Below are positions 42,154 through 52,773 of a stretch of 64,000 nucleotides of DNA, one piece after another. Positions within the stretch are counted from its first letter, which is position 1; each line of letters opens with the position of its first letter. The stretch comes from Luteibacter mycovicinus. Lineage in GTDB: Bacteria > Pseudomonadota > Gammaproteobacteria > Xanthomonadales > Rhodanobacteraceae. A program made the translations under genes and the position numbers. The notes beneath the pieces are model-generated. The model did not search any database and was not told the DNA's origin. It saw only the letters and a program-made list of their open reading frames with translations. The stretch is taken from contig NZ_JQNL01000001.1 in assembly GCF_000745235.1 (NCBI RefSeq), forward strand, positions 1,550,001 through 1,614,000, given 5' to 3'.

Positions 42154-43275
42154 ATGGCCCGCATCAAGAACCGCATTCTTTCCGCCGCCGAGCTGCAGTC
42201 CTTCGGCGACGAGCTCGACGCCCTGCGTGCCCGCGTCGCTGCCGACGTCGGCGCACGCGACGCCCGCTATATCCGTCGCATCGTCGCCGCCGTGCGCTGG
42301 ACCGGCGTGACCGGGCGCGCACTCCTCTTCTTCGGCGCCTTCGTGCACAGCGTGCTCGTCCCCGCCTGGATCGTCGGCACGATCTGCCTGGCCCTGTCGA
42401 AGATCCTCGACAACATGGAGCTCGGCCACAACGTCATGCACGGCCAGTACGACTGGATGGGCGACCCCAAGCTGCATGGCCAGACCTACGAATGGGATAT
42501 CGTCGCCACCGGCGATGCCTGGCGCAAAACGCATAATTTCCAGCACCACACGTACACCAACGTGCGCGGCATGGACGACGACATCGGCTACGGCCTGCTG
42601 CGCATCTTCCCCGAGCAGCGCTGGCGTCCGTTCTATCTGATGCAGCCCGTCATCGCGGTGTTCTTCATGCTGCTGTTCCAGTGGGGTGTGGCTATCCAGG
42701 ATCTGCGCATCGGCCGCTGGTTCGCGGGCAAGATGAAGACAGCGGAACTGCGTCGCAACTTCCGTCCGGTCGGTCGCAAGATGGCGCGTCAGCTGATCAA
42801 GGATTACATCGTGTTCCCGCTGCTGGCCGGCCCGTTCTTCCTGCCGGTGCTGCTGGGCAACCTCGTCGCCAACGGCATGCGCAACATCTGGACCTTCGTC
42901 ATCATCTTCTGCGGCCACTTCACCGCCGATGCCGAAGTGTTCCCCAAGGAAACCATTCGCGACGAAACGCGCGGCCACTGGTACCTGCGCCAGCTGCGCG
43001 GTTCGTCCAACATCGCCGGCGGCAAGCTGCTCAACGTGCTGTCGGGCAACCTGAGCCATCAGATCGAGCATCACTTCTACCCGGACCTGCCGGCCAACCG
43101 CTACGCGGCGATGGCGGTCGAGGTGAAGCAGATCTGCGCCCGTTACGGCCAGCACTACAACACGGGCTCGTTGCCTAAGCAGTTCGGTCAGGTCATCTGG
43201 CGGATCGTGCGTCACGCCTTTCCCAGCCGCGTGCGTACGGCAACCCTGCCATCGGCCGCCCTCCAGCGGGGCTGA
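42154..43275 (+). CDS. desB: acyl-CoA desaturase, DesB-like
   Basis: 373-aa membrane di-iron desaturase that introduces a double bond into saturated acyl chains. All three histidine boxes are present: HNVMH near residue 94, HNFQHH near residue 128 and HQIEHHFYP near residue 306, along with hydrophobic segments (residues 55-80 and 160-180). It is the second gene of a DesT-regulated operon and depends on the preceding reductase. Confidence 0.95.
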   Translation: MARIKNRILSAAELQSFGDELDALRARVAADVGARDARYIRRIVAAVRWTGVTGRALLFFGAFVHSVLVPAWIVGTICLALSKILDNMELGHNVMHGQYDWMGDPKLHGQTYEWDIVATGDAWRKTHNFQHHTYTNVRGMDDDIGYGLLRIFPEQRWRPFYLMQPVIAVFFMLLFQWGVAIQDLRIGRWFAGKMKTAELRRNFRPVGRKMARQLIKDYIVFPLLAGPFFLPVLLGNLVANGMRNIWTFVIIFCGHFTADAEVFPKETIRDETRGHWYLRQLRGSSNIAGGKLLNVLSGNLSHQIEHHFYPDLPANRYAAMAVEVKQICARYGQHYNTGSLPKQFGQVIWRIVRHAFPSRVRTATLPSAALQRG

Positions 43276-43614
43276 TGCTCGCGATGGGAGACCCCGCGCC
43301 TTCCGACAGCGCGTCCTCCGCAACGACATCCACGAAGGCGTCGTTTCAGGCACTGCACGATTTCGGCAACATAAGCCGCTGACCGGCCAGCAAACGCGAC
43401 CCGATGCACACATCGCCACCGCTCATTTTCGGCGGTGGATGCGCCTGTCTGGCTCATGACAATCAAATTCATGCCGTGTCCATCATTTCACCCGCTATAA
43501 CTGGCTTGACACTGAACGCCGTTACAGGTATCCAAGGCCAAGGGACTACTTCGACTGATCGGGGGACCGGATGGCACGGATGCACCGAACACGCACTCTC
43601 CGCATGGCATCGCC
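43276..43614 (+). promoter_or_regulatory. intergenic region with the promoter of the RiPP locus
   Basis: No protein gene is supported in these 339 nt. A stem-loop CCACCGC (43416-43422) / GCGGTGG (43432-43438) may end desaturase transcription, though no T-run follows. TTGACA (43506-43511) and TATCCA (43529-43534) are separated by exactly 17 bp, the best sigma-70-type promoter in this part of the window, with a predicted start near 43541. This is the likely promoter of the 43.6-51.1 kb peptide locus. Base composition drops here relative to the flanking desaturase gene. Confidence 0.7.
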
Positions 43615-43752
43615 ATGAAATGGCCCAACGCGGGCTCCGTTAACGACGCAAATGACGTGACTCCCCCGCCTTCGGCAGGGTGGATCGTGCTCGTCTGCGC
43701 CATCTCAATCGCCACATGCCTGACGGTGGCGTACGCGTATTTCAAAGGTTGA
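43615..43752 (+). CDS. 45-residue single-TM protein at the head of the RiPP locus
   Basis: A short frame ATG 43615 to TGA 43750-43752. The protein has a polar N-terminus (MKWPNAGSVNDANDVTPPPS) and one clear transmembrane helix at residues 22-42 (GWIVLVCAISIATCLTVAYA) with a short basic end FKG. ATG 43615 is the only ATG/GTG/TTG start in the open frame, but its ribosome site is weak. It ends 21 nt before the radical SAM gene and begins about 75 nt after the predicted transcription start. It could be an immunity peptide, a small transporter subunit or a membrane anchor; no homolog is recognised. Confidence 0.55.
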   Translation: MKWPNAGSVNDANDVTPPPSAGWIVLVCAISIATCLTVAYAYFKG

Positions 43753-43773
43753 ACTGAACGACAAGGGGATGTC

Positions 43774-44835
43774 ATGCGTCACGACGGAAATAGGCACCTT
43801 CACCTCACCATTCTTCCGACCGAGCGCTGCAATTTTCGCTGTACGTATTGCTATGAAGATTTTGCAATCGGCAAGATGAAACCGCCGGTAGTCGATGCGA
43901 TCAAGAGCCTGATCAGACGACGCGTCGAGCAGGGTGGTCTTCGATCACTGCAGTTCGAGTGGTTCGGCGGAGAACCTCTCGTGGCCAAAGATATCGTCCA
44001 CGATATTGCCGCGTACGCACACGGTTTCTACGAACGCGGTGAACTCGAGGAGTTCGAAGGCGGCCTGACGACCAATGCGTTTCTCCTCGACCCCGCCACG
44101 CTGCAACTGCTGGTATCGCGTCGCCAACGCAACTTTCAGATATCCCTCGATGGCGATGAGGAAGCCCATAACCGATCCCGTCAGTATGCGAACGGCTCGG
44201 GCACCTTCAAAGAGATCTGGGCGAATCTAACCGCGGCACACACGTCCGACCTCGACTTCGAAATCATCGTACGCCTGCATATCATGCCGGGAAACGAACA
44301 GGGCCTGCTTCGACTGACCGAAAAGATCGCCGTCGAACTCGGCGGAGACCCCAGGTTCAGTATCTACGTCCGCCACATCTCGGATCTCGGCGGAACGAAC
44401 GAGAATCAGAAGGAAATGCAGACCATTTCCATGGACGAGGCACACCGCATCTCGCTGGTCATCGAGGAACGTCTCGTCAGGGCGGGCTTCAAGGTATCCA
44501 ACGGCGTAGGTAACCTGTTCGAGAGCGCGATCAAGGTCACCGATATCAAGCGCAAATCCGACCTGCCAGTCGCTGGAGATGCATCACCTTCGGGTGCGGA
44601 CGACCACGAGTTCGGCTACATCTGCTACGCCGCGAAGCCCAACCACCTCATGATCAGGGCCGATGGAAGACTCGGGAAATGCACCGTCGCTCTCAATAGT
44701 CAGGGCAACGTGGTCGGCCGACTCCTGGACGATGGCCGCGTTCAGATCGACGACGAGCGTATGAATTTCTGGCTGCGCGGACACCTGAGCCGAAACGCAG
44801 ACGAACTGGGCTGTCCCGCGCATTCGTACGGATGA
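43774..44835 (+). CDS. radical SAM peptide-modifying enzyme with reduced SPASM-like C-terminus
   Basis: 353-aa enzyme. The radical SAM cluster motif is C19-x3-C23-x2-C26 (TERCNFRCTYCYED), followed by WFGGEPL and FQISLDGDEEAHNRSR, typical of RiPP maturases. In the C-terminus C284-x13-G-x4-C303 fits the first half of a SPASM/twitch cluster (ICYAAKPNHLMIRADGRLGK), but the usual CX2CX5CX3C block is missing; only C347 (LGCPAHSYG, at the very end) remains. No RRE domain is visible. It precedes two precursor genes and probably installs a carbon- or sulfur-linked crosslink in their C-terminal cores. Confidence 0.9.
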   Translation: MRHDGNRHLHLTILPTERCNFRCTYCYEDFAIGKMKPPVVDAIKSLIRRRVEQGGLRSLQFEWFGGEPLVAKDIVHDIAAYAHGFYERGELEEFEGGLTTNAFLLDPATLQLLVSRRQRNFQISLDGDEEAHNRSRQYANGSGTFKEIWANLTAAHTSDLDFEIIVRLHIMPGNEQGLLRLTEKIAVELGGDPRFSIYVRHISDLGGTNENQKEMQTISMDEAHRISLVIEERLVRAGFKVSNGVGNLFESAIKVTDIKRKSDLPVAGDASPSGADDHEFGYICYAAKPNHLMIRADGRLGKCTVALNSQGNVVGRLLDDGRVQIDDERMNFWLRGHLSRNADELGCPAHSYG

Positions 44836-44913
44836 AGCCGCCGCTTTTCACGGATGAAAACTCAGGCGCCAGGACCCGCGCCTACCTCGTTGAGTACAAC
44901 TGGAGAATGGACC

Positions 44914-45096
44914 ATGAGTAACGGAACCACCGGACACGACATCGTGTTCGTCTACGACGAAGATGGCCTCTTCGACATCCAGGGCGACGCGGCCCCGTTC
45001 GATCTGACGGGCGGCATCCAGGGATCCATGGCAAACGTCGGCGAAGGCCTCGTCGTGTCTGGATTTGCATGCACCAATGACAAGAACTGTAAGTAA
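44914..45096 (+). CDS. RiPP precursor peptide 1 (GG leader, CX5C core)
   Basis: 60-aa peptide starting at ATG 44914, 8 nt after GGAG; an in-frame ATG at 44854 lacks a ribosome site. Leader: residues 9-22 DIVFVYDEDGLFDI, nearly identical in precursor 2. A double-glycine site L31-T-G33-G34 suits the C39 exporter encoded downstream. Predicted core: residues 35-60, starting IQGSM and ending SGFACTNDKNCK, with C53 and C59 five residues apart. It is not a fragment of a larger gene and sits 78 nt after the radical SAM gene. Confidence 0.85.
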   Translation: MSNGTTGHDIVFVYDEDGLFDIQGDAAPFDLTGGIQGSMANVGEGLVVSGFACTNDKNCK

Positions 45097-45105
45097 GGAA
45101 ACGAC

Positions 45106-45270
45106 ATGAGCACTGAGAACAAGCTGTTCGTTTATGACGAAGATGGGCTCTTCGATATCGTGGACTCCACCAAGGCGGAACACCTGAGTGGCGGCATCCA
45201 GTCGTCCATCGGACTCAGCACCGAGGCGGTCTCCGGTGTCTTCTGCCACAACAAGGATTCGTGCTCCTGA
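45106..45270 (+). CDS. RiPP precursor peptide 2 (GG leader, CX5C core)
   Basis: 54-aa peptide starting ATG 45106, 9 nt after the stop of precursor 1, preceded by AAGGAA. It repeats the leader block LFVYDEDGLFDI at residues 7-18, carries L27-S-G29-G30, and has a predicted core of residues 31-54 starting IQSSI and ending SGVFCHNKDSCS, with C47 and C53. Paired with precursor 1, the constant features are DEDGLFDI, L-x-GG-IQ, SG and C-x-N-x3-C; the rest varies. This is what a duplicated substrate pair for one maturase looks like. Confidence 0.85.
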   Translation: MSTENKLFVYDEDGLFDIVDSTKAEHLSGGIQSSIGLSTEAVSGVFCHNKDSCS

Positions 45271-45323
45271 CAAGGGCGGGGGCCACGTGCCCTTGAATTC
45301 CCGGTGCCGCTTCGGCGGCACCG
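45271..45323 (+). terminator. two stem-loops between precursors and transporter genes
   Basis: CAAGGGC (45271-45277) pairs with GCCCTTG (45289-45295), and CGGTGCCGC (45302-45310) pairs with GCGGCACCG (45315-45323) around the very stable tetraloop TTCG. They start 1 nt after the precursor 2 stop. No T-tract follows, so partial termination or 3'-end protection is more likely than complete termination. Either would give more precursor than transporter transcript. Confidence 0.75.
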
Positions 45324-45350
45324 TTCGCGCAGCCAGATTAGGAGCGCAGC

Positions 45351-46658
45351 ATGTTAGGTTATTACGTGGAGTCCGCATGGCACGGAACCCGCAGGCACCC
45401 ACTCATGTCCGTCTTCATGATGCTTGCAGTCGCGATCGGCATCAGCGCTCCGTTCTCCGCCGTTGCGCTCGTGGAGAGCCTGGGGGGCGACCCGCTTCCC
45501 GGCTACAGCACATCGGTGTTTCATCCGCAGATAGAACCGCGCCCAGCCGATATCGTGGCAGGCGATAAAGCCATGCCGGCAGATCTGACGCTGCAGGATG
45601 CGAACGCGCTCTACCGGTTATCGTCTGCGCCACCTGGCGCGATCATGAGCACGAATCGCCTGCCTTCGAAGCGCGGGGACGACGCGTCCCCCCTTCGAAT
45701 GACGCCTACGCGTGCGACCACCTGGCGCTTTTTCGAGCTGTTCGGTCTTCACTTCATCGTGGGACGCGGCTGGACAGAGGCCGAGGACCAGTCGCGAACG
45801 CCTGTCGTCGTGCTGTCACGCCGGGCCAACGATCGGATGTTCGGAGGTGAGAACAGCGTCGGCAGGGAGATGCAGATCGCCACCCGCAGCTTCCGCGTCA
45901 TCGGTGTCGTCGACGACTGGAATCCGAAACCGCACTTTTACGATTTGGGCACGGGCGCGTTCGCCAACGCCGAAGACCTGTACATGCCGTTCGCCACGTG
46001 GCTCGACCTTCCTCAGGACTATGGATTCGGACCCGTAAAATGCTGGTCCTCGGCAGGCCAGACTGGCGAGAAGCCGACCGCTCCGAACTGCACGTGGGTG
46101 CAATACTGGGTCAACCTGGCCAGTGCGGACGCGGTTGCACGCTTCAGCGATACCCTGCGCGCGTACGTCAGGACACAGCGCGATGCCGGAAGGTTCCAGC
46201 TCGACGTTCGTCCGCGCGTATCGAACGTACGCAACTGGGTAGCCATCAATAATGTCGTTCCGCCCGCCGTGCGCATGCAAGCGGTCATCGGAACAGGCAT
46301 CTTCGTCGTCTGCATGATGAGCGCCGTCGGCCTTCTCGTAGCCAAGTTCTCGCGCTACGGCTCCGAGCTTGCGATACGCCGCGCGCTGGGCGCCACGCGA
46401 CACGACATCTTCATGCAGTGCTTCCTCGAAGCCGGCATCGCAGGGCTGGCTGGCGGTGTGCTGTCGTTGCCGCTGACATGGCTCGGCTTCCGCATGATTC
46501 AGAAACAGACGCCATCGCTGGTCGAAGGAATTCATATCGACTTCGCGGCGCTTTCCCAATCGGTCATGGTGGCGATTGTCGTGATGTTTGCCGTGGGCTT
46601 GTATCCGGCAGTTCGCTCATCCCGCATCGCTCCGGCACAACTGATAAAAACCGCATGA
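45351..46658 (+). CDS. MacB/FtsX-like ABC transporter permease 1 of the RiPP locus
   Basis: 435-aa membrane protein: one N-terminal TM (about residues 18-40), a large periplasmic MacB-core-like domain, and three C-terminal TMs of the FtsX type (GIFVVCMMSAVGLLVAKF; AGIAGLAGGVLSLPLTW; VMVAIVVMFAVGLYPAV) with ELAIRRALGATRHDIFMQ between them. GGAG precedes the ATG. It overlaps permease 2 by 4 nt. No ATPase of the LolD/MacB type is encoded nearby. Confidence 0.9.
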   Translation: MLGYYVESAWHGTRRHPLMSVFMMLAVAIGISAPFSAVALVESLGGDPLPGYSTSVFHPQIEPRPADIVAGDKAMPADLTLQDANALYRLSSAPPGAIMSTNRLPSKRGDDASPLRMTPTRATTWRFFELFGLHFIVGRGWTEAEDQSRTPVVVLSRRANDRMFGGENSVGREMQIATRSFRVIGVVDDWNPKPHFYDLGTGAFANAEDLYMPFATWLDLPQDYGFGPVKCWSSAGQTGEKPTAPNCTWVQYWVNLASADAVARFSDTLRAYVRTQRDAGRFQLDVRPRVSNVRNWVAINNVVPPAVRMQAVIGTGIFVVCMMSAVGLLVAKFSRYGSELAIRRALGATRHDIFMQCFLEAGIAGLAGGVLSLPLTWLGFRMIQKQTPSLVEGIHIDFAALSQSVMVAIVVMFAVGLYPAVRSSRIAPAQLIKTA

Positions 46659-47863
46659 ATCGATTTCTCATCATGGTCCCGACCGTGCTGGCCATGCTGC
46701 GGCGGCAAAAGTTCATACATCTCATGCTGCTTGCGGAGATCGCGGTACTCACCGCGTTGATCGTCAACGCTCTGGCAGTCGTTGCCGCCACGCAGCAGCG
46801 ATGGCAGACACCGACCGGCGTCGACGAAGCCAACATCGGTGTCATCCGAAGCATAGGCGTCGTCGGCGCGGCTAACCCGTCAACGGCGGCACAGAACCTC
46901 CAGCTCCTCCGTGAGATCCCCGACGTTCGGTCCGCGGCATACGGCGCACCGCCATTGATGAACACCTCCACGATCGATGTCCGCCGTGATGCCGGCGCTC
47001 GGTCGGCTACCACCCGTGCATACCTCTTTCAGGGGAGCCAGGGGCTCACGGCCACACTCGGACTCGACGTGGTGGCCGGGCGTACGTTCACCTCGGATGA
47101 TCCGCCACCTGCCGGCACACTGGACGACAACAGCGTTCTTCCCGTTCTCATCACGCGGGAGTTATCGCAAAGATTGTTTCCCGACTCGGATGCTCTCGGA
47201 AAGGTCGTCTACACCAATGGCAATCCCATGCGGGTGATCGGTATCGTCCGATATCTTCGATCCCAGCTTACCGGCGCCGACAACGACGACATGGGTGTCG
47301 TCAGCGAGATTCGTATCGAGAATGAAAATGTCGGTGGCGCATTCACCATCCGCGCGAAGAACGGCTCGCTCGGACGGGCACTACCCGCCGCGGCTGCCCT
47401 TATGGAGCAGCATAATACCGGCCACGTCCAGGCCGATGTCTTCACGCTCACGGGGAAGCGCCTGGAATACTTCGCCTCCGATATGGCCGTGTCGCGCATG
47501 CTCCTGACCGTGATTATCGTCCTTATCGTCATGCTTGCCTGCGGACTGGCTGGCCTCACGCATTTCCTTGTGAATAAGCGTCAGAGGCAGATTGGAGTGA
47601 TGCGCGCCGTCGGTGCCATGAAGCGGGATATCGTCTTCTTCTTCGCCTGCGAAAACCTGATCGTTTCAGGTAGTGGCGCGATCCTCGGCATCGTCATGGC
47701 GATTTCCCTTCACGTCCATCTCTCGGAACGTTACGGTCTGGCGGCGCCCACGTCAGCACTGGTTCTGGTGACCGCGCTTGGAATGATGGCCGTCAGCCTG
47801 TCTGCCGTGGCGCTTACTGCCGGACGCGCGGTACGTCGCACCCCCATGACGCTTTTCGGATAA
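46655..47863 (+). CDS. MacB/FtsX-like ABC transporter permease 2 of the RiPP locus
   Basis: 402-aa protein with the same architecture as permease 1: N-terminal TM (HLMLLAEIAVLTALIVNALA), periplasmic domain (VVAGRTFTSDDPP; VLITRELSQRLFPDSDALGK), then FtsX TMs with RQIGVMRAVGAMKRDIVFFF. ATG 46655 overlaps the previous stop as ATGA, so the pair is coupled and probably forms a heterodimer. Function may be self-protection or extraction of the peptide from the membrane; an ATPase must come from elsewhere. Confidence 0.9.
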   Translation: MNRFLIMVPTVLAMLRRQKFIHLMLLAEIAVLTALIVNALAVVAATQQRWQTPTGVDEANIGVIRSIGVVGAANPSTAAQNLQLLREIPDVRSAAYGAPPLMNTSTIDVRRDAGARSATTRAYLFQGSQGLTATLGLDVVAGRTFTSDDPPPAGTLDDNSVLPVLITRELSQRLFPDSDALGKVVYTNGNPMRVIGIVRYLRSQLTGADNDDMGVVSEIRIENENVGGAFTIRAKNGSLGRALPAAAALMEQHNTGHVQADVFTLTGKRLEYFASDMAVSRMLLTVIIVLIVMLACGLAGLTHFLVNKRQRQIGVMRAVGAMKRDIVFFFACENLIVSGSGAILGIVMAISLHVHLSERYGLAAPTSALVLVTALGMMAVSLSAVALTAGRAVRRTPMTLFG

Positions 47864-47868
47864 GCACC

Positions 47869-48984
47869 ATGTCGCCGGACGATATGTTCAGGGAGCTCAT
47901 CACCACCGATTCGCTGGTGGATACGGGGCGGACCGCCCGCAAGCCTGTCGCGGCATGGCTCGATGAACTGATTTACAAGACCGAGCAATTGCCACGAAAT
48001 CGCACGCGCTCCCTCGGTGAATTCTCCTCGATCCAGAACAATTTTTCGCTCATCACCATGCTGATCGACGGCACGGAGGCGGCTCGGAACGAATGCGCCG
48101 CACAGATTGAACATGCTGTCCAGGAGGGGTTTCCCGGTGAGGCCATGCAGCCCTGGGTGAACCTCGCGCGACTCGACCGCATCGACGGTAAGGCGAGGGC
48201 CGCGGCACGGAAACTATCCGCCGTGCGACGTCTCGCCGAGTGCGGCCGCGTCACACTGGCGGGGACTCGCTTTGGTTCCGACGGCGCCGACAGGCGGTTC
48301 GCCGCAAGCGTATACGCCAGCGAAAATTTCTATGCCGCGCTGGCACAGAGCGATGCACTCGCCACTCATTTCCGGCGCGTAGAGCGCCAGTTGGGCCGCA
48401 AGGAACATCCACTCCTCGCCGAGCAACAGGTCGTCGCCGGCACCCTCACGGGCGACTTCGACATGGTCAACGCGGGATTGTCCAACCGAGCCTGGTTCAT
48501 GGACGCGCGAACCCGCCTGGCCGGCATGTTCTACCGCGCCGCGTGGTCGTGGCGTCAGGGCGTGCCGGAACCGGTCGACCGTCTGGCTGTGGAACTGCTT
48601 CGGCAGTCATCCCCCAAGGCCGCCGAACGAATGCTCGACCATGTGGTGCTTCGCCTTGTGTATCGCGGTGGCCTGCTGGCCCTCCAACGCGGGGACCGAG
48701 AGCGTGGCGTCGCATTGCTTGAGCGAACCCGCCACTACGCCACGCGACTGTCCGATGCGGAGTATGTGGCTCGCGCGGGCGCCCGTCTTGAAACACTCGG
48801 AGAAGCGAGCGCCTGGAAAGTAGCCGCTGCACGGAGCGGCTACCGGTCTTTCCGCGGCGTGCCGTCATTCGCGGAAGGTCGGCAGGACCAAGGCATCGCT
48901 ACGCGCATCGATAAGCTGAAGGAGCTTGTGCATACCATTCGCCGCAATGTTCCGCTGCGCACTTACGCGTCGGTGGAAGCATGA
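47869..48984 (+). CDS. protein of unknown function in the RiPP locus
   Basis: 371-aa cytoplasmic protein, no signal peptide or TM. It is rich in Ala, Arg and Leu and looks all-helical; segments such as GEAMQPWVNLARLDRIDGKA and GGLLALQRGDRERGVALLER resemble TPR-type repeats, but no family is recognised. It follows permease 2 by 5 nt and overlaps the exporter gene by 4 nt (ATGA), so it belongs firmly to the operon. A role as leader-recognition adaptor or second modification protein is conceivable but not shown. Confidence 0.8.
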   Translation: MSPDDMFRELITTDSLVDTGRTARKPVAAWLDELIYKTEQLPRNRTRSLGEFSSIQNNFSLITMLIDGTEAARNECAAQIEHAVQEGFPGEAMQPWVNLARLDRIDGKARAAARKLSAVRRLAECGRVTLAGTRFGSDGADRRFAASVYASENFYAALAQSDALATHFRRVERQLGRKEHPLLAEQQVVAGTLTGDFDMVNAGLSNRAWFMDARTRLAGMFYRAAWSWRQGVPEPVDRLAVELLRQSSPKAAERMLDHVVLRLVYRGGLLALQRGDRERGVALLERTRHYATRLSDAEYVARAGARLETLGEASAWKVAAARSGYRSFRGVPSFAEGRQDQGIATRIDKLKELVHTIRRNVPLRTYASVEA

Positions 48985-51074
48985 AGCGGCGTGTTCCGAT
49001 CGTGCTCCAGGCCGAGCTGACCGAGTGCGGCCTCGCGTGCGTCGCCATGATTGCCCATTACCACGGGCATGGCATCGATCTGGGCTGGATGCGTTCCCGT
49101 TACGCGTCCTCACTATCGGGCATGTCCTTGCGCCGCACCGCCGAGATCGTGGCGGAGATCGGCTTGCATCCGCGCGTGATCAAGTGCCCGATGAGCATTC
49201 TCGCCCGCCTTGGCCGCCCGACCATCCTCTACTGGGGGAGCAATCACTTCGTGGTGTTCATCTCAGCCAAGGATGGCCGTTACGTCATCCATGACCCCGC
49301 GAAGGGTCGATGCGTGCTGAACGAAACGGAGTTCGCGCGTCTTTTCACCGGCTACGCGATCGACGCCCAACCAGGGCAGGATTTCACGCCGATTGTGCCC
49401 GCGCGAAAACCACGATTCAACGCGCAGGTCCGAACCATCATGCGCTCCCTGGTGGGAGCGGGCCTGCTACTGCTCTGTTTGGCGGTTTGCCTCGAGCTAC
49501 TGGGGCTCGTTGGTCCATTACTGCTTCAGTGGGTCATCGAGCGTGCCATAGGAAGACGGGATGTCGATCTTCTCTATCTGCTAGCGGGTCTGTTTTCGTT
49601 CGCCATCCTGATCCGGTCCGTGCTTAGCCTGGCCCGTGACTGGTCGATCGCCTCGGTGAGTGCAGCGTTCGTTCGCCGATGGGGAGCGGACGTTTTCCGG
49701 CATCTTCTCCGGCTTCCGCTGGCCTACTTCGAAAAGCGGAACATAGGAGACGTGCTGTCGAGATACCTCTCGATCCAGTCCATCCAGTCGATCCTTTCGA
49801 CCAATATCGTGTCTTCGCTCATCGATGGTGGGACTTCCCTCATCGCCCTGGTGTTGATCGCGGGCTATTCGTTGAAGTTCGCGCTGATCGCGCTGGTGAC
49901 CCTGGCTTTCTACGGGGCGATCAGGCTCTACGTCTACACACCGCTGATGCTCGCCAATCAGGATCAGCTCAATGCCAGCGCGCGGCAGGAAAGTCTCATG
50001 ATCGAATCCGTGAGGGGCATCGCCACGGTCAAGCTGTTCAACGACCACGAAGGTCGAACGAACCGCTTCACCTCGCTGTTCACCCTTACGCTCAACAAGC
50101 TGATCCGCGTGAAGTACCTCAGTTCGATAGCGAGATCCGCGAACGACTCCATCATGGGGCTCTGCCGTATCGGCATCGTCACTCTTGGCGCAAGGCAGGT
50201 ACTGGATGGTCATTTCACCGTTGGAGCTTTTGTCGCCGCCATCGCCTACGTCGAAATGTTTCTTCTAAAGGGCGCCGCCCTCGTCGATAACATCATCGAA
50301 CTGCGCTTGCTCGATCTGCATGTCGACCGACTCCGCGACATCACGGATCAGCCCCAGGAGGAGCTCGGCGCGGGTGCGCTGCCTGCATCCATCGGCACCC
50401 TTCGCTTCGAAAATATCGGATTCCGTTACGCGTCGGATGAGCCGTGGATAATTCGGCACTTCGACGAGACGATCCTGCCCGGTGAGTCGGTAGCGCTGGC
50501 CGGCCCTTCGGGGGTCGGAAAGACAACGCTAATCAAGCTCATTCTTGGCTTCCTCGAGCCTACCGAGGGTCGCATCCTCTATGACGGCGTCGATGTCACG
50601 ATGATCGGGCGCGCCGCTTTCCGCGCAATCTGCGGTACGGTCCTGCAGAGCGACCGCCTCTTCTCAGGGTCGATCGAGGAAAACATCTGCTTTTTCGACC
50701 CCGCCATGGATAGCGCCAGGGTGTCGCGCGCGGCGCATCTCGCAGCCGTGGATGGGGAAGTCATGAGCTTCCCGATGGGCTATAAGACACTGGTTGGCGA
50801 TATGGGCTCGGCCTTATCCGCAGGTCAGGAGCAGCGCATTCTGCTCGCGCGCGCCATCTACCGGAATCCACAGCTGCTGCTGCTCGATGAGGCAACCAGC
50901 CACCTGGACGTCGTCAACGAGCGGCTGATCGGACGACACATCGCTGGCTTGCCGATGACCAGGCTCATGGTGGCGCACCGCCCGGAAACCATAGACTCGG
51001 CTGATCGGGTCATCCATCTCCATTATCCGCACGAAAACGGAAAGCCTTCGGTAGCGGCAACGGCCTCCCGATGA
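48981..51074 (+). CDS. peptidase-containing ABC transporter (C39 protease, PCAT)
   Basis: 697-aa exporter that trims double-glycine leaders and secretes the product. The C39 domain has the full triad: C16 (QAELTECGLAC), H89 (GSNHFVVF) and D105 (VIHDPAKG). A six-TM core follows (about residues 155-430), then the ATPase with Walker A GPSGVGKTT, a C-loop LSAGQEQR (Ala instead of the usual Gly at the third position) and Walker B LLLLDEATSHLD. Last gene of the operon. The two precursors in the same operon carry matching L-x-GG sites. No HlyD-type adaptor is encoded here. Confidence 0.95.
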   Translation: MKRRVPIVLQAELTECGLACVAMIAHYHGHGIDLGWMRSRYASSLSGMSLRRTAEIVAEIGLHPRVIKCPMSILARLGRPTILYWGSNHFVVFISAKDGRYVIHDPAKGRCVLNETEFARLFTGYAIDAQPGQDFTPIVPARKPRFNAQVRTIMRSLVGAGLLLLCLAVCLELLGLVGPLLLQWVIERAIGRRDVDLLYLLAGLFSFAILIRSVLSLARDWSIASVSAAFVRRWGADVFRHLLRLPLAYFEKRNIGDVLSRYLSIQSIQSILSTNIVSSLIDGGTSLIALVLIAGYSLKFALIALVTLAFYGAIRLYVYTPLMLANQDQLNASARQESLMIESVRGIATVKLFNDHEGRTNRFTSLFTLTLNKLIRVKYLSSIARSANDSIMGLCRIGIVTLGARQVLDGHFTVGAFVAAIAYVEMFLLKGAALVDNIIELRLLDLHVDRLRDITDQPQEELGAGALPASIGTLRFENIGFRYASDEPWIIRHFDETILPGESVALAGPSGVGKTTLIKLILGFLEPTEGRILYDGVDVTMIGRAAFRAICGTVLQSDRLFSGSIEENICFFDPAMDSARVSRAAHLAAVDGEVMSFPMGYKTLVGDMGSALSAGQEQRILLARAIYRNPQLLLLDEATSHLDVVNERLIGRHIAGLPMTRLMVAHRPETIDSADRVIHLHYPHENGKPSVAATASR

Positions 51075-51154
51075 ACGTCAGTCCCGGGTTTTGGTCGCGG
51101 ATGTCGACATTGGCCGCGTCGCCGACCGGACTACGCATGACCTGACCGGGCGGG

Positions 51155-51574
51155 CTATCGGCTGTTTCTGCGAATCAGCCATACCGCAAGCAGAGCTGCA
51201 CCGCTCCCGAGAGCTACGGCGCGCACTCCTGGCTTGATCGCGACGTCCGCAACCATCCCCTCGGCAGCGTCGACCCGATCGGCCGCAAGCAGCATCAGCC
51301 AGTGGCGGAGGTCGTTCTCACTGTGGCGGAAAGCCCTGCGGCGTATCCACCCGCTGATTCCGCGCGGCGGAACAGTCGTGCCGAACACCGGCGGCCGAAC
51401 GAAGTGCTCAGTCGATTGCAATATTTCGACCGCGCTCTCCTGCGCAGGCGGCGGCGTCCAGTGCACGCCTTCCAGCCGTGGCGGCGTGCGCTCCATCGGC
51501 ACCGCCGGACGGTTCGCACGGTCAAGGTCGGCGCCCCAACCGGGGATGGTGCTGCGGTCAATGGGCTGGTTCAT
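51155..51574 (-). CDS. small membrane protein linked to the alcohol dehydrogenase
   Basis: 139-aa protein with a proline-rich soluble part and one C-terminal TM helix (AVALGSGAALLAVWLIRRNS). ATG 51574 overlaps the stop of the preceding dehydrogenase as ATGA, so it is translationally coupled. No family is recognised. Confidence 0.7.
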   Translation of the reverse strand: MNQPIDRSTIPGWGADLDRANRPAVPMERTPPRLEGVHWTPPPAQESAVEILQSTEHFVRPPVFGTTVPPRGISGWIRRRAFRHSENDLRHWLMLLAADRVDAAEGMVADVAIKPGVRAVALGSGAALLAVWLIRRNSR

Positions 51575-52773
51575 GCCGGCTCTCCGGGGACGATGGAAGG
51601 GTTCGGAGTCTTGACGGACGACCCCGTTGCCGTCGGCGGGATCAATACGGCCTTGATGCAGCCGTCTTTCTTGCCTGAGAACATCTCGTACGCATCACTG
51701 ACCTCTTCGAGCGGAACGCGATGGGTAATGATGGCCTTGGGGTTGAGCCGGCCAGCGCGGACGTGCTCGATGAGGCGCGGAAGATGACGCTTGACGCTTG
51801 CCTGATTCATTCGCAAGGTCAGCCCCTTGTTGACCGCATTGCCGATGGGCACGGCGTTGAACGTCGGACCGTACACGCCGACAATGGACACGTTGCCGCC
51901 CTTTCGCACCGAGTTGATGGCCCAGTGCAGCACCGTGGCCGCTCCCGCCTGGAGCTTCATCGTGACACCGGTCAGCTGTTGAAGAGCGCTGCCTGCCGCC
52001 TCGCATCCCACCGCATCGATGCACACATCCGCACCGAGCCCGTCGGTCATTTTCTTGATATGGATGGCCATGTCGCCCACTTCCCGAAAATCAACGGTCT
52101 CGGCCGGGCCATACGCACGGACGAAGTCGAGCCGGTAGTCGACGTGGTCCACGACGATGACCCGCCCCGCCCCCATCAGCCACGCGGACCGGGCGGCCAT
52201 GATGCCAACCGGACCGGCACCGAAGACGACAACGGTGTCGTTTTCCTTGATGTCGCCCATCTCGGCGGCCTGGTAGCCCGTGGGCACCACGTCGGTAAGC
52301 AGCACGGCGTCTTCGATGTCGATATCGTCGGGAATGACGGTTGGCCCGATGTCGGCGAAGGGCACGCGCACATATTCGGCCTGCCCGCCGGCGTAGCCAC
52401 CCGTGGTATGTGAATAACCGTAGATTCCACCCACTGCGGTCGCCGACGGGTTCACGTTGTGACAGTTGCTGTAGAGCTCCCGCTGGCAGAAGTAGCACGT
52501 ACCGCAAAAGATGTTGAACGGGACGAGTACGCGGTCACCGACCTTCAGTCGTTCGACGCCATTTCCCACCTCGACGACCTCACCCGTGAACTCGTGCCCG
52601 AATACCGAACCCACGCGCGTATCCGGGACGAGGCCATGGTAGAGGTGCAGGTCCGACCCGCAGATGCAGGTCCGTGTGACGCGGACGATGGCGTCGAACG
52701 GGTGTTCGATCACAGGATCGGGAACTTGCCGCGCGGCCACACGGTAAGGGCGGCGATAGGTGGTCGCGAGCAT
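51571..52773 (-). CDS. zinc-dependent alcohol dehydrogenase, formaldehyde-dehydrogenase-like
   Basis: 400-aa MDR enzyme. Catalytic zinc ligands are in CICGSDLHLYHG and FGHEFTGEVVE; the structural zinc site is the four-Cys block CGTCYFCQRELYSNC. The NAD-binding motif is VVFGAGPVGIMAARSA. Length and the insertion after it (DMAIHIKKMTDGLGADVCID) match the glutathione-independent formaldehyde dehydrogenase group. The start is ATG 52773; the longer upstream open frame lacks similarity to the family. Confidence 0.9.
   Translation of the reverse strand: MLATTYRRPYRVAARQVPDPVIEHPFDAIVRVTRTCICGSDLHLYHGLVPDTRVGSVFGHEFTGEVVEVGNGVERLKVGDRVLVPFNIFCGTCYFCQRELYSNCHNVNPSATAVGGIYGYSHTTGGYAGGQAEYVRVPFADIGPTVIPDDIDIEDAVLLTDVVPTGYQAAEMGDIKENDTVVVFGAGPVGIMAARSAWLMGAGRVIVVDHVDYRLDFVRAYGPAETVDFREVGDMAIHIKKMTDGLGADVCIDAVGCEAAGSALQQLTGVTMKLQAGAATVLHWAINSVRKGGNVSIVGVYGPTFNAVPIGNAVNKGLTLRMNQASVKRHLPRLIEHVRAGRLNPKAIITHRVPLEEVSDAYEMFSGKKDGCIKAVLIPPTATGSSVKTPNPSIVPGEPA

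Follow-up and report, generated by a model that had tools for sequence, protein, structure and literature searches.

An eight-gene operon in Luteibacter mycovicinus

What is made by a compact set of genes that joins a radical S-adenosylmethionine (SAM) enzyme, two short cysteine-containing peptides, two permeases and a peptidase-containing ABC transporter (PCAT)? This question is raised by a 64,000-nt stretch of Luteibacter mycovicinus DNA (contig NZ_JQNL01000001.1, positions 1,550,001 to 1,614,000, forward strand; hereafter the window), in which eight open reading frames (ORFs), all present, occupy positions 43615-51074 on the + strand. The answer towards which we lean, by a modest degree, is a two-peptide operon for a radical SAM-modified, ribosomally synthesised and post-translationally modified peptide (RiPP). 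In this operon, a thioether would be set under guidance of the leader, the peptides would be cleaved after a double glycine (GG) and exported by the PCAT, the permease pair would act on the peptides, and the 371-residue protein U371 would serve as a scaffold. The features are as follows.

43615..43752, +, small protein of 45 residues with a single transmembrane (TM) segment, function unassigned; hydrophobic segment 18-44
43774..44835, +, radical SAM maturase, 353 residues; PF04055; CX3CX2C and a three-Cys twitch (C284, C303, C347)
44914..45096, +, precursor A (preA), 60 residues; leader ...FVYDEDGLFDI...DLTGG, core IQGSMANVGEGLVVSGFACTNDKNCK
45106..45270, +, precursor B (preB), 54 residues; leader ...FVYDEDGLFDI...HLSGG, core IQSSIGLSTEAVSGVFCHNKDSCS
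45351..46658, +, FtsX1, MacB_PCD and FtsX permease, corresponding to the N-terminal half of a duplicated ADOP-type permease; PF12704, PF02687
46655..47863, +, FtsX2, MacB_PCD and FtsX permease, corresponding to the C-terminal half of a duplicated ADOP-type permease; PF12704, PF02687
47869..48984, +, U371, helical repeat protein resembling TPR proteins, which may serve as a scaffold or partner; weak structural and profile matches
48981..51074, +, PCAT, C39 peptidase and ABC exporter, 697 residues; PF03412, PF00664, PF00005

The original prediction had listed a radical SAM enzyme, twin short peptides, two FtsX-like permeases, a 371-residue protein, a C39 ABC exporter and a small TM protein on one strand. 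All eight ORFs were found, and the Pfam names agree: Radical_SAM, two proteins with MacB_PCD and FtsX, and Peptidase_C39 with ABC_membrane and ABC_tran. The small TM protein, both peptides and U371 matched no Pfam or NCBIfam family above cut-off. Neighbouring genes overlap by 4 nt at two junctions (FtsX1/FtsX2 and U371/PCAT), the widest intergenic gap in the operon is 80 nt (preB to FtsX1), and GGAGA lies upstream of preA.

Conservation of the operon and its precursors

A locus of Luteibacter jiangsuensis and a contig of a metagenome-assembled genome (MAG) each carry all eight genes in unchanged order; two of our entries, L005 and L009, are one L. jiangsuensis record and were counted once. Window positions 43595-51028 aligned with L. 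jiangsuensis at 70% DNA identity and positions 43606-51013 with the MAG in two pieces at about 69-70%, whereas the flanks did not align with either within the stretches compared. Because the block aligns in DNA while its flanks do not, and because the eight proteins are kept in order, the operon is a real unit rather than a chance assembly, and these alignments indicate that its conservation is beyond chance. The window precursors were 75-82% identical to their counterparts in the two loci, and the small TM protein was 67% identical in L. jiangsuensis and 73% in the MAG. Stenotrophomonas loci carried a shorter gene set than the eight-gene version.

A precursor profile built from eight sequences found 19 proteins, all sharing the leader F-x-YD[ED][DN]GL[FC][DE][IV]. 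Two of them, the metagenome entries P0144 and P0145, lacked a normal core and were excluded, leaving 17; they keep the Stenotrophomonas-type leader and look like shifted or cut ORFs. The GG site has a hydrophobic residue at -4 (DLTGG in A, HLSGG in B), and L[ST]GG is also present in the Luteibacter-type precursors. This L and the GG are invariant across the eight-sequence alignment, and P0140 and P0141 lack the L. The remaining positions of what we take to be the canonical double-glycine leader fit only loosely. Luteibacter-type loci carry an A form, C[ST]NDKNC (from which P0146 deviates), and a B form, FCHNKD[ST]C, and the Stenotrophomonas-type precursors have a single form, CK[VI]NSGNCVSGCAC. 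Asn occupied position -4 of a Cys in 16 of the 17 precursors, P0146 being the exception.

The prediction that the GG-leader precursors, the radical SAM enzyme and the PCAT form a RiPP locus was supported in two ways. Precursors are conserved beside homologous radical SAM and PCAT genes. Additionally, NCBIfam, sequence profile and fold searches did not assign the enzyme to any family whose established function is unrelated.

A leader motif beside a widespread radical SAM family

At 1e-3 or better, 1722 proteins among 5941 candidates matched the window radical SAM enzyme. Its family, for which no name was found in this analysis, is widespread and spans several phyla; the twitch holds three Cys, and most members have short N-termini. 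One survey (PMC9062424) reports related radical SAM enzymes in more than 250 clusters and 22 unexplored pathways, and the window family may be among them. Members also occurred on contigs filed under Candidatus Micrarchaeota MAGs (L031, L058 and L070), which are possibly mis-binned bacterial contigs.

From short ORFs beside the radical SAM gene in 79 loci, the motif phi-[DN]-x-x-G-x-phi-x-phi was drawn (YDEDGLFDI in the window), and ORFs of 35-150 residues with this motif and a downstream Cys were scored mechanically. Within 1.5 kb on the radical SAM strand, 61 of 714 ORFs matched, in 51 of the 79 loci (two being sister loci of the window operon), compared with 1 of 865 ORFs (1/79 loci) on the opposite strand. 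Matches numbered 3/956 (+) and 4/1195 (-) at 1.5-4 kb, and 5/2164 (+) and 2/2443 (-) beyond 4 kb, the latter in 5/79 and 2/79 loci, respectively. When at least two Cys were required, 56 near matches were counted versus at most 4 in 200 shuffles. The opposite-strand match and two of the five far matches (Stenotrophomonas, 4.7 kb from the radical SAM gene) look like genuine precursors.

Two further observations concern such peptides. The opposite-strand match is a precursor-like peptide of a Caulobacterales MAG (L040:9397-9705, - strand), so this control is not wholly free of real precursors. Meanwhile, a groundwater Gammaproteobacteria MAG carries seven different Cys/Asn-rich precursor-like ORFs around one radical SAM gene (L010:9691-12757).

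Asparagine spacing ahead of the cysteines

The pattern C-x-N-x3-C occurred 38 times in near ORFs on the radical SAM strand (200 shuffles: mean 2, maximum 7). Opposite-strand ORFs gave 3 occurrences, and ORFs far away gave 6 and 2. For the scoring of Asn, the sister loci were left out, and 57 leader-matched peptides from 49 loci were reduced to 42 representatives, 41 of which had Cys in the scored tail. Asn stood at -3 of 61 of their 141 Cys and at -4 of 41 (maxima of 24 and 25, respectively, in 500 shuffles), and at either position for 95. At least one Cys with Asn at -3 or -4 was present in 33 of the 41 peptides versus a shuffle mean of 17.6. Asn at +2 was also raised (31/134; shuffle maximum 24), as repeats would give. 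The last Cys of both window precursors obeys the rule, with Asn at -4. For the CX5C core of the original prediction, a better reading is a single instance of the N-x(2,3)-C rule that runs through the family, with Asn four residues before the last Cys. We regard one Asn-Cys thioether per peptide as the most likely product, at about even odds.

The thioether might have another acceptor, either Asp, as with PapB, or an alpha-carbon, as in sactipeptides, which we consider rather unlikely. Both window cores do contain Asp (CTNDKNC and CHNKDSC), and the sub-threshold NCBIfam matches of the enzyme include PapB, Clo7bot, CefB and the sactipeptide maturase RumMC. However, the spacing of Asp differs between A and B, and across the family Asp is rarer than Asn both at -3 (12 vs 61) and at -4 (6 vs 41).

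A three-Cys twitch enzyme with a short N-terminus

When the window enzyme was aligned with those of the 79 loci from genome contigs (80 rows), six columns had Cys in more than 30% of rows, namely CX3CX2C, C284, C303 and C347. CX3CX2C, C284 and C303 were kept in 79 of 80 rows (one gap) and C347 in 78 (two gaps), and no Cys that could be a fourth twitch ligand was conserved among the 80. G298 lies five positions before C303, and the resulting C284-x13-G298-x4-C303 resembles what we take to be a SPASM/twitch start. Judged by these columns, the C-terminal auxiliary-cluster region is twitch-like and not a full SPASM domain. Because just 18 residues precede the first Cys of CX3CX2C, there is no room for a RiPP recognition element (RRE), and no RRE/PqqD model appeared in the Pfam or NCBIfam results for this enzyme. 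Among the relatives, fewer than 80 residues precede CX3CX2C in 75 of the 79 measured ORFs.

The window enzyme fell below the cut-off of every NCBIfam model among the best 25 of 64 matches. The best of those listed was TIGR04463 (101.3 bits vs a cut-off of 525), and the PapB family NF047865 gave 94.3 bits vs 340. For an alignment of 29 family members (A1), the bit scores, which are those of its first member only, were likewise below the cut-offs. The AlphaFold2 (AF2) model had a mean predicted local distance difference test score (pLDDT) of 84.9. Foldseek returned CteB (5why, 5wgg) as the best match and also listed anSME, SuiB, EpeE and 6efn (SkfB); in the sequence profile search, 5wgg (CteB) was again first.

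These matches also bear on a non-crosslinking change, such as epimerisation, a C-C bond or oxidation, with the two Cys forming a disulfide. The presence of anSME close behind CteB, of SuiB and of the epimerase EpeE in the fold list would suit it, and a two-Cys loop could close as a disulfide. We nevertheless judge it quite improbable: the thioether enzyme CteB is the best structural and sequence match, the three-Cys twitch suits the open-site clusters described for thioether enzymes, and the Asn rule tracks the Cys positions.

Weighing the Asn-Cys thioether

Several points weigh against a leader-guided Asn-Cys thioether, besides the Asp inside both cores. CteB is barely ahead of anSME (E 2.5e-13 vs 1.2e-12; TM-scores 0.64 vs 0.61), and therefore the fold does not single out thioether chemistry. 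According to PMC9413430, PapB takes Asp/Glu acceptors. The exact C-x-N-x3-C occurs in only 16 of the 79 loci (two being sister loci), neither window core has Asn three or four residues before its first Cys, and the Asn of P0146 stands at -5. In 4 of the 79 relatives, more than 100 residues precede CX3CX2C (longest ORF), and an RRE is possible there. No motif-matching peptide lies within 1.5 kb in 28 of the 79 loci, some of which have likely precursors missing the pattern by one position. At least 3 of the 61 near matches look like chance (L051, L054:10800 and L063:9325), and 50 loci would remain without them. On the export side, no HlyD, outer-membrane factor or separate ATPase was found within the operon. 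Finally, the leader motif was written after inspecting the same 79 loci.

Because the motif came from the loci on which it was scored, six plasmid loci that had played no part in its definition served as a further test, with the enzyme types read in the same step. Motif peptides were found at 3 of the 6 loci, that is, at 3 of 4 with a three-Cys enzyme (Streptomyces twice and Sinorhizobium) and at 0 of the 2 others. All four matching peptides were on the radical SAM strand near the enzyme. At the fourth three-Cys locus, on an Acetobacter plasmid, the enzyme has extra Cys and the peptide misses the motif by one position. Neither of the two Deinococcus plasmid loci, whose enzymes differ in their Cys pattern (SPASM-like in L151, shorter in L152), had a motif peptide. 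In the controls, the motif matched 0 of 78 near ORFs on the opposite strand and 0 of 118 and 0 of 136 further away. At the second Deinococcus locus (L152:278-5885), the related radical SAM gene and an LLM-class oxidoreductase gene lie beside lantibiotic dehydratase genes.

Proposed pathway and comparison with known systems

In the proposed pathway, the shared leader motif (YDEDGLFDI) would be recognised by the radical SAM enzyme without an RRE domain. The thioether would probably join the last Cys to an Asn four positions ahead of it, N55-C59 in A and N49-C53 in B, and this Cys would bind the twitch cluster at the site that its three Cys leave open. Cleavage after GG by the C39 domain would follow, and the PCAT would export peptides of 26 and 24 residues, presumably biologically active. 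At the inner membrane or in the periplasm, the split MacB/ADOP-type pair may act on these peptides, either as a second export stage or for self-protection, drawing on an ATPase in trans; U371 would be a TPR-type scaffold.

The closest known systems are ranthipeptides (NxxcA, CteA/CteB and PapA/PapB), which likewise combine a short Cys-containing precursor and a radical SAM enzyme with C-terminal auxiliary cluster(s). As described in PMC8326336, NxxcA has a Cys23-Asn20 thioether, which has the N-x-x-C spacing of the window family, and the CteB cluster has an open coordination site. CteB is also the closest solved fold to the window model. Unlike these enzymes, the window enzyme lacks an RRE-sized N-terminus (an RRE as in CteB is common, not universal), has only three twitch Cys and falls far below the PapB and SCIFF models. 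Moreover, the window locus has a GG leader, a PCAT and MacB-type permeases, and its thioether is a predicted one. The locus would thus work like a ranthipeptide system, with class membership to be claimed once the bond is seen.

SkfB has an auxiliary cluster held by three Cys, as predicted for the window enzyme, and is among the fold matches of the latter (6efn). According to the same source (PMC8326336), SkfB carries an RRE, unlike the window enzyme, and its cluster was observed in the [2Fe-2S] form, possibly with a remote fourth Cys; alpha-carbon chemistry belongs to SkfB, whereas a link through Asn is predicted for the window enzyme. The two-component sactibiotic thuricin CD has two related radical SAM-modified precursors per system, as here, but its two radical SAM enzymes work as a complex according to PMC12093266, compared with one enzyme and GG/PCAT export in the window.

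Taken more widely, the family could be an undescribed, multi-phylum RiPP class, a tentative proposal to which we give slightly less than even weight. It would have an RRE-less, three-Cys-twitch radical SAM enzyme, a common leader motif and thioether rings from Asn-x(2,3)-Cys. Several Gram-negative members would export in two stages, by a PCAT and then a MacB-type pump, and the Luteibacter version would be a two-peptide system whose pump has shed its ATPase. Among the open-access titles listed by our literature search, none concerned the window locus or the N-x(2,3)-C family. PMC11138164 gives one antiSMASH ranthipeptide cluster for S. maltophilia CSM2, which may or may not be of the window's kind. 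If the proposal is true, one leader motif and one spacing rule could pair more than 1000 radical SAM genes with their peptides. The family would also be a source of RRE-independent thioether-forming enzymes and a defined set for testing the interplay of an open-site auxiliary cluster and Asn acceptors.

The PCAT and the permease pair

The PCAT carries ECGLAC, HFVV and HDPAKG, which we take to be the Cys, His and Asp catalytic motifs of C39 (PF03412, E 3.3e-27), and Walker A, Walker B and signature motifs are present. Its residues 2-679 align with PCAT1 (4ry2) and residues 15-680 with HlyB, and the architecture of a C39 peptidase plus ABC exporter is shared with PCAT1 and ComA over nearly the full length. 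It differs from these systems in having no HlyD adaptor or TolC gene in its operon, although a relative's locus has HlyD.

The two permeases align to the two halves of the ADOP family TIGR03434: FtsX1 to positions 8-400 (120.9 bits) and FtsX2 to positions 411-798 (105.5 bits), both short of the cut-off of 622.3. By this alignment, the pair is a split ADOP-type MacB permease. It differs from the family in being split in two genes, below the cut-off and with no ATPase in the operon. A matching RALGA-like segment, which presumably faces the ATPase in MacB-type permeases, is kept in both halves. DarB, the darobactin export permease, is a precedent for such a permease in a radical SAM RiPP pathway; the match is weak (18 bits of 700) and DarB is known here by its model name.

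Further split or fused ADOP-type permeases were found in the L. mycovicinus genome near 1.06, 1.93, 1.95 and 2.11 Mb (L115-L118). In a motif search of the stretches read, some of these had an adjacent ATPase and two split pairs had none, so an ATPase could act in trans. Being orphan therefore does not set the window pair apart, since two other such pairs occur in the genome. For the same reason, the idea of the ADOP pair as a unique RiPP gene was rejected.

Such further permeases, two split pairs among them without an ATPase nearby, make it conceivable that the window pair has no part in the pathway and is one more generic split ADOP like others in the genome. We consider this improbable: the pair lies within the compact operon at each of the three eight-gene loci and at both Stenotrophomonas loci, and similar fused permeases stand beside the same radical SAM family in eight marine loci and on the Acetobacter plasmid. 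After the radical SAM gene, and on its strand, these marine loci (L018, L020, L022, L024, L047, L048, L060 and L071) have a PCAT, a short ABC-ATPase-like ORF and a fused MacB-type permease. On the plasmid, the peptide and the radical SAM gene come after an ABC ATPase, a fused ADOP-like permease and TolC. Within the DNA covered at the 85 loci scanned, a C39 protein was found in 37 and an ADOP-like permease in 16, four of which were profile sources; not every C39 or permease gene near a radical SAM gene need be part of a RiPP locus. Whether a MacB-type pump that lacks its own ATPase can serve a RiPP is a question for which the permease pair is a natural test case.

The marine loci (Pseudoalteromonas, Shewanella and Colwellia) look like a fuller, two-pump version of the window operon. 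In L018, the one examined with Pfam, HlyD lies between the PCAT and the ATPase, and a prolyl-oligopeptidase follows the permease.

U371 and the upstream region

The 371-residue protein, left unassigned by the original prediction, still has no Pfam or NCBIfam match, yet now resembles repeat proteins of the TPR type, and a distant counterpart lies directly after a relative's radical SAM gene. A search in which the best 7998 candidates were scored found seven proteins, itself included. Its AF2 model (pLDDT 81.3) is helical except for two short strands, and TPR proteins make up most of its best structural matches, all of which have E above 0.001. The U371 profile matched a 364-residue Oleiagrimonas protein over 275 columns (probability 87%, E 4e-6, 24% identity); this protein has a sub-threshold TPR_12 match, and its gene overlaps the end of the radical SAM gene. 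A scaffold role for U371 would be in keeping with these matches.

A strong promoter (TTGACA/TATCCA) had also been proposed. The perfect -35 is present at 43506, and the -10 is poor, with TATCCA fitting the consensus at only 3 of 6 positions. A consensus scan of the upstream region did not report TATCCA, which its rule, demanding a final T, excludes by design, and an alignment of upstream regions showed no conservation of the proposed promoter at the two sister loci. Neither lends support to the proposed strong promoter.

Distribution and genomic setting

Precursor B was found in 2 of 61 genomes searched, the window's own and one congener. The radical SAM enzyme had a match at 1e-40 in 8 of 299 genomes of the order, its own included, and at 1e-60 in 2 of 398 genomes across the phylum, again with its own among them; E. 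coli genomes gave no match by DNA comparison. GC content per kb was 0.585-0.646 across the block vs 0.628-0.692 in the surroundings. The operon is probably patchily distributed and horizontally moved. In a related genome (G005), the left flank (window 43230-43595) matched near 0.50 Mb and the right flank (51074-51635) near 3.41 Mb, which places the operon at a junction in this alignment. As these places are distant, no clean empty site could be demonstrated in G005, the one congener covered by this comparison. In L. jiangsuensis, a second C39 exporter and large uncharacterised ORFs were observed upstream of the RiPP operon (L005:11481-17661, equal to L009:2856-9036).

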